DNA from: an archaeon
GTDB taxonomy: Archaea; Micrarchaeota; Micrarchaeia; Anstonellales; Anstonellaceae
Direction of reading: 5' to 3'
NCBI GenBank assembly: GCA_020056635.1
Contig: JAGVHI010000011.1
Location: 1-52,666 of the forward strand
Length of the DNA: 52,666 bases
In this document: piece by piece, positions 36,660-47,899 of the stretch
How the letters are laid out: each line of letters starts with the position of its first letter
Numbering within the stretch: the first letter of the stretch is position 1
The notes under the pieces: model-generated
What the model was told of the DNA's origin: nothing
The model's input: the letters and a program-made list of their open reading frames with translations, nothing else
Databases searched by the model: none
Translations under genes and position numbers: made by a program

Positions 36660-38279
36660 CTATTCCCTAACCTTGGTTTTTGGCATTTTGATATTGTAGA
36701 TTGTGAGGGGGAAATCGCCGCTCTTCTCAATTCTGCCTCCGAGCGCATCAAGCAGTATTTTCTTTATTCGAATATATTCTTCCTTCCCAACCTCGTAATT
36801 CCCTATCGCGTGCCTAAGGTTCTTCACGTTGAAGCAGAACATGCAGTCATGCAGGTTCTCGCAGTTGTGGATGAAATAGCAGTCAGAGCAGTTCGAGCTG
36901 TTGTCGCACTCAAAGCATCTGGTGAGCTTTACTGAATCATTGCAGTTGATGCAGAATGAGAGGTTCCTCGCATCTGTGCACCCGAACGCGTGTTCGCAGG
37001 TCCTTGCCATGAAACAAGAGGCGCACAGGCGCGATTCGATGAACGTGACTCCGCGGTAGGTGTCTGTGGAATAAAGGTTTATCGGGCTGTCTATGTTGTT
37101 CCGAAGGGTGCCAGTGAGCCATATCGGGGTGAAATAGGCAATCTTGGAGAGAATCGCGGGCGCATTTTCAAAGTTCAGCGAATCGGTTTCCTGCCCAAAG
37201 AGCGATAGCTTCTCGCCAGTGAAATCGGCTTCCTCCAAAGTCAGGAGCCGCTCGCGCGGGAACTTCCCTATCCATCCATAGTGGCTGCCTAGCTTGATTG
37301 GCTTTCCTGACAGGCACGATTTGCAGTCCTCGGTGGTGCCGCTTGAATTTTTCTCAAGCAATCCTAGGCATTTGTCTATTCCCAAAGGCTTGGCGCCAAG
37401 GACCAGATGGGCAGTTTTTGCGAATGCATCCTCTATGATGGGCTTGTCCTGCACTTCCGCCTGCCGGCTTGGCATCCCAGAAGCAACATCCTTTAGCAAG
37501 CGGTAATCCGGTTTCGTTGCCCCTGCGATTTCCATAATGTTTGGAAGCCGCTTGTTTTTCTTAAGCATCCCAAGCGCTTCGGCCAGCAGTTTTCCTTTAA
37601 GCTGTGCGTATTTTTCAGGCGAAAGCTGTAGATTCCCGATGCGGTTGCGCTTGGTGCGGATATTGAAGCAAAAAAGGCATTCCCTGCATCCGAACAGCCC
37701 GTGCGAAAAGTAACAGTCCTGTGAATTGTCGGACTTTGTGAGCGCAAGGCAGCGTGCCAGCTCGAAAACTGCGCCGCACCGCATTAGGAACTGCGACCTG
37801 CCAAAGTTCTGGCACCCGAAAATGTTCTCACTTGAGCTGCCGTTGTTGGAGTAGGCGACGTATTTCGCATATGCAATCCGTTCGGAGCGATAAACGTAAT
37901 AGGAGTCATAAACAGTAGTGCTGCTCTGCACGAATTTCGAGTTTCCGAGAATTATGTTCCCTGTGAAGCATGCGCGCTCGCTTATGGCTGCAATTAGCGA
38001 ATCAATATCCTTGATTTCGTTTATGCTTATTGGTGGGTATTTTTTCTCAAAGTCCACTTCATCAAGGGCTATTGCAGGAGTGCCTGGCGAGTAGTATTCA
38101 TGCGGAAACACAACCTCTTTGCCGCTTATGGCCGATTTGCAGATCAGCCTCGGCTCGTTATCTTCCCGCAGCCATTTCCCGTAATCCGAAAGCTCGCCTG
38201 CCTCTTCCCCAAAAAGAATTTTGCATAGCGATTTCCATTTCCTGTTCGTTTCATCGTATGCCTCGTTATTTTCCTTCAT
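36660..38279 (-). CDS. Cysteine-rich duplicated protein, paralogue A
   Basis: 539 residues from the ATG at 38279; a start at 38339 would overlap the regulator gene by 17 bases. It is an internal duplication. Each half has a short domain (CKILFGEEAGEL...SGKEV in half one, CKSCLSGKP in half two), an IKDIDSLIAAISER-like segment, and a cysteine-rich repeat region ending IGN followed by a KEEYxxxKxxLL helix. The C-half has dense Cys pairs (CINCNDS, CFECDN, CSDCYFIHNCEN, CMFCFN), about 30 cysteines in total. No signal peptide. Metal or iron-sulfur binding is likely; function unknown. Confidence 0.8.
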   Translation of the reverse strand: MKENNEAYDETNRKWKSLCKILFGEEAGELSDYGKWLREDNEPRLICKSAISGKEVVFPHEYYSPGTPAIALDEVDFEKKYPPISINEIKDIDSLIAAISERACFTGNIILGNSKFVQSSTTVYDSYYVYRSERIAYAKYVAYSNNGSSSENIFGCQNFGRSQFLMRCGAVFELARCLALTKSDNSQDCYFSHGLFGCRECLFCFNIRTKRNRIGNLQLSPEKYAQLKGKLLAEALGMLKKNKRLPNIMEIAGATKPDYRLLKDVASGMPSRQAEVQDKPIIEDAFAKTAHLVLGAKPLGIDKCLGLLEKNSSGTTEDCKSCLSGKPIKLGSHYGWIGKFPRERLLTLEEADFTGEKLSLFGQETDSLNFENAPAILSKIAYFTPIWLTGTLRNNIDSPINLYSTDTYRGVTFIESRLCASCFMARTCEHAFGCTDARNLSFCINCNDSVKLTRCFECDNSSNCSDCYFIHNCENLHDCMFCFNVKNLRHAIGNYEVGKEEYIRIKKILLDALGGRIEKSGDFPLTIYNIKMPKTKVRE

Positions 38280-38322
38280 CGAATCCGCCGTGTTTTTTAC
38301 AGATTTGAGATTAATAATCCAT

Positions 38323-39309
38323 CTAGCCTTGCCCTGCAATTGCCCCGTAACCAGGCATCCAGCGCTCCTCCATGAATATCACGTGCTCGCAATTGCGCAC
38401 CACGTTCGGGAACTTCCTGCGCATCTCGTCTATGATTTGGTTGAACTGCATGTAGTTCTCCACTATGAACTCGAACTCCGCCTCCCAGGGGGCAAGCGAG
38501 CGTATGTAATAGACAGAGTGCGGCTCCTGCCTCATCCATTCCATAAGCGCGATCTCCTCCTTGCGCGAGAGGGATTTGAAATAGACGATTGCCTTGAAAA
38601 ATTCATAGCCCAGCTTGTTTATGTCCACGTCGATGCGGTAGGAGAGTATTATGCCCAGTTCTTCCATACGCTTCATTCTTCTTCGCACAATCTCGACGGT
38701 TGATTTTGTCCTTTGCGCCAATTTCGTGAGAGGGATTTTCGCATCGTTTGCAAGAATGTCAATAATTGCAAAGTCCAAATTGTCGAGCTTGTTATCGACA
38801 ACGTTTCCTGCGAAAACGACGCTTCTCTGAGGTGCGTTAGACAGCAGGTACTTCTTGTTGTACTGCGTAGTGTCCACCATCACCCCGAGGAGCTTGCGTA
38901 TTATGAGCTTGCGGAACTGCGCGCAAATCGCATTTATTTCCTCATAGTATTCGGTTATGCCCCTGGAGAGGATTGCGAATATGCAGTCAAACGCCCCATC
39001 TGAGATGCCATACCAGTAGATGTTCTTCCTTGTGCGCAAAAAATCGTAAAATTTGGCGCGCTCTTCTGGGATGTTCTCAAGCTGGAGGTAGACCTTGAAC
39101 ATGTAGAAGCCGAACTTGTTGGGGTTTATCGAGGTGAGGTAGCCTGTTATTATGCCGTTTTCTTCCAGTTGCTTAATCCGGTATTTGACTGCTTCCCTTG
39201 ATTTTCTCACTTTTTTCGCAAGCTGCGCTGTTGAGATGCGGCAATTTAGGTCAAGCTCAGTGAGTATTCGCCTGTCAGTGATGTCGAGAAAAATGCGCTC
39301 TTTTTCCAT
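38323..39309 (-). CDS. Double Lrp/AsnC-type transcriptional regulator
   Basis: 328 residues comprising two Lrp-like units in one chain. Each has an N-terminal winged helix (DRRILTELDLNCRISTAQ at about 11-28, and NLDFAIIDILANDAK in unit two) followed by a ligand-binding-like region. The fused form could bind as a monomer where normal Lrp proteins dimerise. It lies between two cysteine-rich paralogues, divergent from one and co-directional with the other. An inverted repeat sits directly upstream. A ligand is not evident. Confidence 0.88.
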   Translation of the reverse strand: MEKERIFLDITDRRILTELDLNCRISTAQLAKKVRKSREAVKYRIKQLEENGIITGYLTSINPNKFGFYMFKVYLQLENIPEERAKFYDFLRTRKNIYWYGISDGAFDCIFAILSRGITEYYEEINAICAQFRKLIIRKLLGVMVDTTQYNKKYLLSNAPQRSVVFAGNVVDNKLDNLDFAIIDILANDAKIPLTKLAQRTKSTVEIVRRRMKRMEELGIILSYRIDVDINKLGYEFFKAIVYFKSLSRKEEIALMEWMRQEPHSVYYIRSLAPWEAEFEFIVENYMQFNQIIDEMRRKFPNVVRNCEHVIFMEERWMPGYGAIAGQG

Positions 39310-39324
39310 AAAGTATTACCAGTT

Positions 39325-39352
39325 TATGCTAAATTTATAATATTATAGCATA
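39325..39352. promoter_or_regulatory. 28-bp inverted repeat at divergent promoter
   Basis: TATGCTA (39325-39331) and TAGCATA (39346-39352) form a perfect 7-bp inverted repeat around an AT-rich centre. It sits 16 bases upstream of the Lrp-like regulator start (39309) and about 55 upstream of the paralogue B start. The AATATTATA motif recurs at 39380-39388 as part of the TATA region of paralogue B. A binding site for the Lrp-like regulator is likely. Confidence 0.6.
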
Positions 39353-39407
39353 TTTCGGTTAAAAATAGCTTGAAAGTTTAATATTATAGATACATTGTAA
39401 AAGGACT

Positions 39408-40961
39408 ATGGAAATCAACGATGCGTTCAAATCAACGTGCAAGGTGCTTTTTGGGGAGGAGGTAGGGGACCTGCGCGATTTCCATGAGTACCTAAGCGAG
39501 ATGGTAGTCCCAAGCTGCAGGATGGAAAAATCGTTTGTTTCCGGCAAGGACGTGATTATTTCAGGCGAGCACTACCCCAAGGGCGCGAAATTCATTTCGC
39601 AGGATGAGATGGGCGCCCTGAAATTTGCGCCCCTGAATACGAATGAGATAAAGGACATTGATTCGCTGTTTATGGCTGTTTCCGAGCGCACTGTTTACTG
39701 CGGGAACAAGCTGTTTGGAAGGAACCAGAATGTAAGCAGCGTTGACAATTGCGTGGATTGCGTCGGGGTGAGCAACTCGCACAATGTGTTCGAGGTGAAG
39801 TACGGGGCATACCTTTCCTATGTGCGCAATTCGGACTTCGTGTTCGGGCTAGGCCCTTTCCCCCAGTGCCATTTCACCATGCGCTCATGTGAAGGGATAG
39901 ATGTGAACAGGGTTTTCGAGAGCTACTACTGCGCGAACATAAGCGACGCGTACTATACTTTCAACTGCGTGGGCTGCGCGAATATCCTCTTTTCATTCAA
40001 TTTGCGCTCGAAGAGCAATTGCATCGGCAACCTGGAGCTTCCAAAAGACCGGTTCAATTCGCTTAAGAAAAAGCTCCTTTCCGAAATGGCAGATGAGCTG
40101 AAAAGAAAAAAGAGGCTGTTCTCGATTGCGGATATTGCGTATTATGGCAGGGATAGGCGCAAAATGCCCGAGGAAAAAGTAGCGTATGATGACCCGGTGC
40201 CGCAAAAAGTGGAGGAGGCATTCCGAGCAACTACCAGGATAGTGCTCGGACATGAGCACCGGGAGATTAAGGGATACGGACCATGGCTGCTTAGCAAGGC
40301 GATGAAAATAAAGAAGGTGAAAGGCGCGTTCGGGAGCCCCACGTTCAAGGTGGAGGGGCTGCCGGCGATACGGGAGATTCCTGCAGACAGGCTTGTAACA
40401 CTGCAGGAGAGTGTGGAATGCGCGAAAACGCACGTGGAGATTGCAGAGGGGGAGGAGCCGTCTTTGCAGGAGATGCTAGCCCTATCCTCTAAATGCGCCT
40501 ACTTCAGCGCGGAATTCGTTGACGGGCAGAACCAGAACTGCGTGGATACCCCTTCGGTGTTTGCAGGCTCGAATGTTTACAAGATTTGGGATACCACCAA
40601 GTCCAAGAATTCGGCATATTCCACAGGGGTAATCCAATCAGAGCACATATTCGGAGGGTATTTGAGGATATTGAACTCGGCATTCTGCATTAATTGCTTT
40701 GATGTTACGGATACGAAGAACTCGTTTGAAGTGGACAGCACCTACACCACCAAGAACGCGTACTTCTGCCACAACTGCGAAAATATGGATAATGCTATGT
40801 TCTGCTTCAATGCAAAGGGGCTAAGGTACGCGGTAGGGAATACTGAAGTTGGGAAGGAAGAATACACGAGGGTGAAAAAAATGCTTCTCGATTATTTAAA
40901 TTCAGAGCTTGAGAAGGAAAAGGGGCTGGATGTTGGGATATTTTGCGTTAAGAAAAAATGA
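39408..40961 (+). CDS. Cysteine-rich duplicated protein, paralogue B
   Basis: 517 residues from the ATG at 39408, near-leaderless behind TTTAATATTA (39378-39387). It is paralogous to the gene at 36660 and shares its architecture: KSTCKVLFGEEVGDL, IKDIDSLFMAVSER, two cysteine regions and IGN/VGN with a KEEY helix at the end of each half. The cysteines are fewer in the first half. The C-terminal region has CINCFDV, CHNCENMDN and MFCFNAKG. No membrane segment or signal peptide. A metal-binding role is inferred. Confidence 0.82.
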   Translation: MEINDAFKSTCKVLFGEEVGDLRDFHEYLSEMVVPSCRMEKSFVSGKDVIISGEHYPKGAKFISQDEMGALKFAPLNTNEIKDIDSLFMAVSERTVYCGNKLFGRNQNVSSVDNCVDCVGVSNSHNVFEVKYGAYLSYVRNSDFVFGLGPFPQCHFTMRSCEGIDVNRVFESYYCANISDAYYTFNCVGCANILFSFNLRSKSNCIGNLELPKDRFNSLKKKLLSEMADELKRKKRLFSIADIAYYGRDRRKMPEEKVAYDDPVPQKVEEAFRATTRIVLGHEHREIKGYGPWLLSKAMKIKKVKGAFGSPTFKVEGLPAIREIPADRLVTLQESVECAKTHVEIAEGEEPSLQEMLALSSKCAYFSAEFVDGQNQNCVDTPSVFAGSNVYKIWDTTKSKNSAYSTGVIQSEHIFGGYLRILNSAFCINCFDVTDTKNSFEVDSTYTTKNAYFCHNCENMDNAMFCFNAKGLRYAVGNTEVGKEEYTRVKKMLLDYLNSELEKEKGLDVGIFCVKKK

Positions 40962-47635: not shown

Positions 47636-47899
47636 CTATTGCCGCCCAAGGCTATAGATATCGAAGGGCAAATCATGCTTTTCCTGAATCCTTTTTGCAA
47701 TCTCCCAAAGCACCATTTTTTTCATCTCGAGGTATTTCTCGCGCCCCACTTCTACGTTCCCTATTGCGTACCTCATGTTCTTCACGTTGAAGCAGAACAT
47801 CGAATCGTGCACGTTCTCGCAGTTGTGAGAGAAATAGAGGTCTGAGCAGTTCTCGCACGAGTCGCACTCGAAGCACCTTGTGAGTTTGATGGTTTGTTT
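47636..47899 (-). pseudogene. Truncated third copy of the cysteine-rich family (C-terminal remnant)
   Basis: About 87 residues of open frame, without a start codon at its upstream end, match the C-terminal end of paralogues A and B. It reads TRCFECDS, CENCSDLYF, SHNCENVHDSMFCFN, KNMRYAIGN, then VGREKYLEMKKM and a stop at 47636-47638. Upstream the frame runs into the lipoprotein gene. It is a decayed or recombined copy, probably not translated. Confidence 0.75.

Follow-up and report, generated by a model that had tools for sequence, protein, structure and literature searches.

Gene organization of the locus

The window analysed here, a stretch of 52,666 nucleotides, corresponds to contig C8 in an assembly of 1.10 Mb that is 79% complete. 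As the first-pass annotation had described from the letters alone, three open reading frames lie at positions 36660-40961, in which two paralogous two-unit proteins flank an Lrp-like regulator with two HTHs (Table 1); the ORF check reproduced all three positions and phmmer aligned the two flanking proteins with an E-value of 6e-84. The gene at 39408-40961 is transcribed divergently from the regulator and has orthologues of up to 72% identity in other Micrarchaeota, and the gene at 36660-38339 follows the regulator on the same strand. For the latter, alignment with its paralogues favours a start codon other than the first TTG, probably the ATG at 38279, which lies some 43 bp beyond the stop codon of the regulator gene.

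Table 1. Positions of genes, protein units and candidate regulatory elements in the window
Feature	Position	Strand	Basis and remarks
Two-unit paralogue with putative Cys-ladder β-solenoids	36660..38339	-	ORF, 559 aa from first TTG; 3′ of Lrp gene, same strand
Double Lrp/AsnC-type regulator, two HTH halves	38323..39309	-	ORF, 328 aa; PF13404 and PF13412
Promoter region shared by the divergent regulator and solenoid genes, 98 bp	39310..39407	.	∼95-100 bp spacing recurs at many double-Lrp loci
Tentative candidate Lrp operator ATTTCGGTTAAAAAT, mid-intergenic	39352..39366	.	Palindromic motif scan
Two-unit protein with putative Cys-ladder β-solenoids, divergent from Lrp gene	39408..40961	+	ORF, 517 aa; AlphaFold2
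N-terminal unit of 39408-40961, about residues 1-246	39408..40145	+	Profile comparison and AlphaFold2
C-terminal unit of 39408-40961, about residues 262-504	40191..40919	+	Profile comparison and AlphaFold2
Family-member remnant, C-terminal cap only	47651..47878	-	43% identity to residues 438-513 of 39408-40961

Each flanking protein had been read as two copies of a ∼250-residue unit, each closed by an IGN/VGN motif and a KEEY helix. A profile-profile comparison built from 15 paralogues of the same genome matched the N-terminal to the C-terminal unit with an E-value of 3.9e-53 across 237 columns, which confirms the internal duplication. In the paralogue alignment the motif and helix emerged as a conserved cap at the C-terminal end of each unit, with IGN-L at about residues 206-211 and VGN at about 476-478. 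Family proteins come in two lengths, ∼258 aa with one unit and ∼528 aa with two.

Cysteine periodicity and predicted fold

With 115 homologues, AlphaFold2 modelled the protein at 39408-40961 at a pLDDT of 93.0 and a pTM of 0.91, superseding an earlier model from 15 sequences whose solenoid part was of low quality (pLDDT about 60). In the model each unit opens with a helical pair and a β-hairpin, continues as a series of very short strands up to the conserved GN cap, and ends in a long C-terminal helix; the N-terminal unit shows this order as helical pair, β-hairpin, solenoid, IGN cap and long helix. Of the cysteines that lie up to 60 residues from the cap Asn, 98% in the C-terminal unit and 91% in the N-terminal unit occupy a single one of the three residue phases. 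In this core phase Cys interchanges with Ser, Leu, Ala and Val, and the Cys columns mostly hold 35-83% Cys (34-90% over the full range besides the top column), the substitutes being S, A, V, L or T. Such phasing, together with the swaps for small residues, argues for a β-solenoid core ladder rather than for metal sites, and the cysteines look like the rungs of it. The dense CxxC pairs that the first reading had singled out are indeed present, but they belong to a strict three-residue periodicity and are not separate motifs; they arise because the core itself repeats every third residue.

The same pairs had led to the hypothesis of a metal-binding or redox-responsive system under the local regulator. 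In such proteins the CxxC pairs would coordinate Zn or Fe-S, or else serve as switchable disulfides. The sheer cysteine content (up to 33 per protein, median 22) speaks for such a role, as does the one column that exceeds 95% Cys, C466 (97%). The invariant, co-conserved Cys ligands typical of Zn and Fe-S Cys proteins were otherwise not found among the family columns, and no metal-site family in Pfam or NCBIfam matched. On the variability of the Cys columns and their common phase we rejected a metal or redox role, which now appears quite improbable. The case also cautions that CxxC motifs need not be metal sites where a strict three-residue core period explains them.

The exact class of solenoid is putative. 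Foldseek returned no significant match to the predicted structure, so the fold class is deduced from the periodicity and the AlphaFold2 secondary structure. Its top, non-significant matches (E ≥ 0.26) were left-handed β-helix hexapeptide proteins such as LpxD and γ-carbonic anhydrase, which have a similar coiled solenoid look; in contrast to these, the family has a period of three with Cys instead of the hexapeptide pattern, and no family protein matched a hexapeptide model in Pfam.

An expanded family in Micrarchaeota

Neither Pfam nor NCBIfam holds a model that matches the flanking proteins, bearing out the earlier remark that they belong to no recognised family, and no description of the family was found in a literature search limited to an open library. 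The two copies beside the regulator had been viewed as a pair; they are real paralogues, but only two of 16 full-length copies in the genome, one of which carries an in-frame stop, and to which the remnant at 47651-47878 is to be added. The copies form tandem pairs or triples on C5, C11 and C21 and stand singly elsewhere. On contig C2 (L020:6183-7745), one in-frame TAG splits a family gene into two single-unit ORFs that follow one another without a change of frame.

Among 59 relatives, 33 carried the family, and the Micrarchaeota relatives ranged from none to 27 or more copies each, one genome yielding up to 27 matches; in a survey of the phylum it occurred in 47 of 245 genomes. Named relatives are mostly labelled Candidatus Micrarchaeota. 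A distant branch of single-unit relatives, arrayed in tandem, occurs in other families within the same class, and profile comparison ties it to both units (E = 8e-28 for the C-terminal and 2e-29 for the N-terminal unit). Tandem arrays and decayed copies point to birth and death of the genes. This is a large, undescribed and expanded family of predicted β-solenoids in Micrarchaeota, and a DPANN genome of 1.1 Mb gives about 2% of its length to it, though such organisms are noted for genome reduction. Certain Patescibacteria (CPR) proteins, often misnamed ‘caib/baif family’, presumably resemble it, with a Cys-rich solenoid and an ‘NKQY.KEEY’ cap.

The double Lrp is a recurrent but not a defining neighbour

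The regulator passed the test for an AsnC-type winged HTH, matching PF13404 (1.1e-20, 73.6 bits against a cut-off of 27) and PF13412 (3.3e-22) in two stretches each. It thus shares its HTH with Lrp/AsnC regulators but has two of them fused in tandem, and the RAM/AsnC ligand-binding domain (PF01037) usual in that family is absent from its Pfam matches and falls below the cut-off in the homologue L067 (19.9 bits versus 25).

At about 16 distinct loci a double-Lrp gene precedes a family member in divergent orientation, at a distance of 45-270 bp, and these loci include the orthologues of 39408-40961 in the nearest relatives (L037, L039 and L042), where the counterpart of 36660-38339 is not beside the regulator. 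The suggested link between regulator and family therefore recurs, but not as an exclusive one: double Lrps also face unrelated genes (in G013, G044, G050 and G058) and occur in family-negative genomes, and on the family tree the Lrp-linked copies are scattered, with 13 changes for 14 labelled rows. Being freely lost and gained, the Lrp was rejected as the defining partner. Other regulators adjoin family genes as well, HTH_10/Bat-like ones in 14 loci and TrmB-like ones in seven. The recurrent but scattered Lrp, taken with these neighbours, suggests that local one-component control is a habit of the family and not a fixed pairing, and the variety of regulators is consistent with separately controlled copies.

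A palindromic motif scan over 25 double-Lrp intergenic regions scored 136.9 versus 133.9, just above all 20 shuffled controls searched with equal effort, and marks 39352-39366 as a candidate operator whose margin over the controls is slight. Beyond the family, double Lrps stand divergent to many unrelated genes at a gap of about 95-100 bp (L124-L155, from the four genomes above and others), a general habit of Micrarchaeota.

A HerA/VirD4-superfamily ATPase co-occurs with the family

In a survey of neighbours, a gene for a HerA/VirD4-superfamily ATPase was found beside family genes in 20 loci. The copy of the present genome is located outside the window (G000:C5:4797-6848, L211), has a proline-rich tail and overlaps the start of a two-gene family run; the two solenoid genes of the window are not adjacent to it. 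Across the 245 genomes of the phylum, 43 carried both family and ATPase, four the family only, two the ATPase only and 196 neither (Fisher p = 9.5e-41, uncorrected for shared ancestry), i.e. the ATPase was present in 43 of 47 family-positive versus 2 of 198 family-negative genomes, and assemblies are incomplete. Adjacency is separate evidence for the link: of the 43 genomes, at least 28 have a family gene no more than 800 bp from the ATPase gene, and at 2 kb the number rises to at least 36. Such pairs also occur in the distant single-unit branch (G135, G194 and G195), and in G023 only a 35-residue family remnant is kept, 71 bp from the ATPase gene. At two loci (G001:C1:63389-65314 and G029:C1:36476-38257) the ATPase is kept with no detectable solenoid gene nearby.

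That the association is real we hold with high confidence, and the ATPase is a stronger partner of the family than the Lrp. It could be argued that a housekeeping or selfish family has simply expanded by tandem duplication and decay, with Lrp and ATPase nearby through inherited synteny, but this is the least probable reading of all, since the orientation of ATPase and solenoid genes and the flanking genes vary over the 20 neighbourhoods, and only three other gene families recur there (three times each), so that synteny inertia does not explain the pairing; the co-presence is of the order of p = 1e-40 (again uncorrected for shared ancestry). The near-perfect co-occurrence offers a first functional handle on a family of genomic dark matter.

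Genomes with the ATPase have a single copy of it, broken into fragments in three assemblies, compared with 1 to 27 or more family copies in the genomes that carry the family. DUF87 scored above the cut-off in the own-genome copy, and a homologue had both DUF87 and TrwB_AAD_bind above theirs (PF10412, 39.9 versus 20.5 bits in L092), domains that it has in common with HerA, VirD4 (TrwB) and FtsK-EccC ATPases. By sequence, the ATPases of solved structure that come closest to it are EccC/FtsK, HerA and TrwB, the best PDB-profile match being the FtsK/SpoIIIE ATPase of T7SS EccC type, 4nh0 (9.3e-8). Unlike those proteins, it has a distinct ∼190-aa N-terminal domain and a variable tail, and it falls far under every curated equivalog cut-off, among them those of the DNA-repair helicase HerA (19.8 versus 970 bits), TraD (20 versus 521) and CedD (30.5 versus 600). 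A separate and better DUF87 match is encoded elsewhere in the genome, on contig C25.

A proposed ATP-driven solenoid system and its alternatives

The combination of a single-copy motor with numerous soluble paralogues under different control suggests interchangeable subunits, with the solenoids conferring specificity, acting as adaptors or being themselves the cargo. Our preferred reading, to which we give somewhat less than an even chance, is that the window proteins are soluble two-unit Cys-laddered solenoids forming one system with the HerA/VirD4-superfamily ATPase encoded elsewhere, as interchangeable and separately regulated subunits. In such a system the solenoid proteins would serve an ATP-driven motor for recognition, as adaptors or as cargo, and the copies dispersed from the ATPase locus may each be switched on by a local one-component regulator. 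At the present locus, the double Lrp would act from the shared divergent promoter on its own gene and on 39408-40961, and probably also control 36660-38339 by read-through. The specific role of the solenoids as specificity, adaptor or cargo subunits is a tentative assignment, at less than an even chance; we infer a physical contact of the solenoids with the ATPase and, on the same footing, what might be moved or recognised. More speculative still is the wider picture of a DPANN machine in which one HerA/VirD4-type motor would use up to dozens of separately regulated, signal-peptide-free solenoids as cargo or to set specificity, perhaps in encounters with viruses or partner cells. Motors of HerA/VirD4 type that work with partner proteins we rate as a known kind of arrangement, and a multi-copy solenoid partner as unusual.

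Two further uses of such a motor were weighed against this proposal, both unlikely and to a similar degree. By analogy with HerA-Sir2 or HerA-DUF4297 pairs, the ATPase might act in anti-virus defence with fast-turnover solenoids as sensors, as could be expected from its matches to PADLOC mad8 (1.6e-10 to 7e-15) and HerA models, from the patchy distribution of the family and from a strongly variable copy number with decaying copies. No PADLOC family covers the solenoids (best 0.04), however, the single-copy ATPase does not behave as a mobile cassette, and Lrp-, Bat- and TrmB-type regulators would in our judgement be unusual in defence. A known HerA defence system is disfavoured because an effector nuclease is absent: neither a nuclease nor Sir2 nor any other effector recurred near the ATPase-solenoid pair in the 20 neighbourhoods.

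The ATPase could instead be a VirD4/EccC-like coupling protein of a transfer or secretion machine that exports either solenoids as its cargo or DNA to the partner cells of a DPANN symbiosis. The TrwB_AAD_bind domain and the match to 4nh0 are compatible with such a function, and effector repertoires likewise combine a single motor with numerous paralogous cargos. This reading is weakened because the ATPase has no predicted transmembrane helix or anchor of VirD4/TraD type; its hydropathy maximum of 1.33-1.68 lies, in most copies, near position 405 and not at the N-terminus. Besides, no membrane partner or T4SS context recurred in the 20 neighbourhoods, and every curated T4SS and T7SS model scored far under its cut-off.

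Resemblances to viral proteins

The protein at 36660-38339 matched phrog_15341 at 7.4e-6, as did 11 of 15 own-genome paralogues (best 1.8e-9), a weak match over the Cys solenoid that covers part of the profile and may partly reflect shared Cys periodicity. In the phage fragment P0002 (IMGVR_UViG_3300025030_000857), the cap ‘KKQYCILNKQYTKEEYEEI’ matched the distant Micrarchaeota branch at 31 bits. The two-unit organization and the ATPase link of the Micrarchaeota family were not seen in either. A scan of viral contigs with the own-genome alignment (A1) retrieved no relatives, and four viral DNA-pattern scans yielded a single fragment, so a viral origin of the family was rejected. That fragment (L113:5841-5966) lies at the end of a myovirus-like contig, bears the same cap and links the family to phages. 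A tblastn search of phages and plasmids retrieved only weakly similar Campylobacter phage proteins with CxxC at every third residue, which are most likely convergent. Two of these (L176:2977-3348 and L177:1968-2663), in which Cys occupies almost every third residue (NCxxCxxC), are encoded beside portal and ligase genes and probably represent an independent Cys-ladder solenoid.
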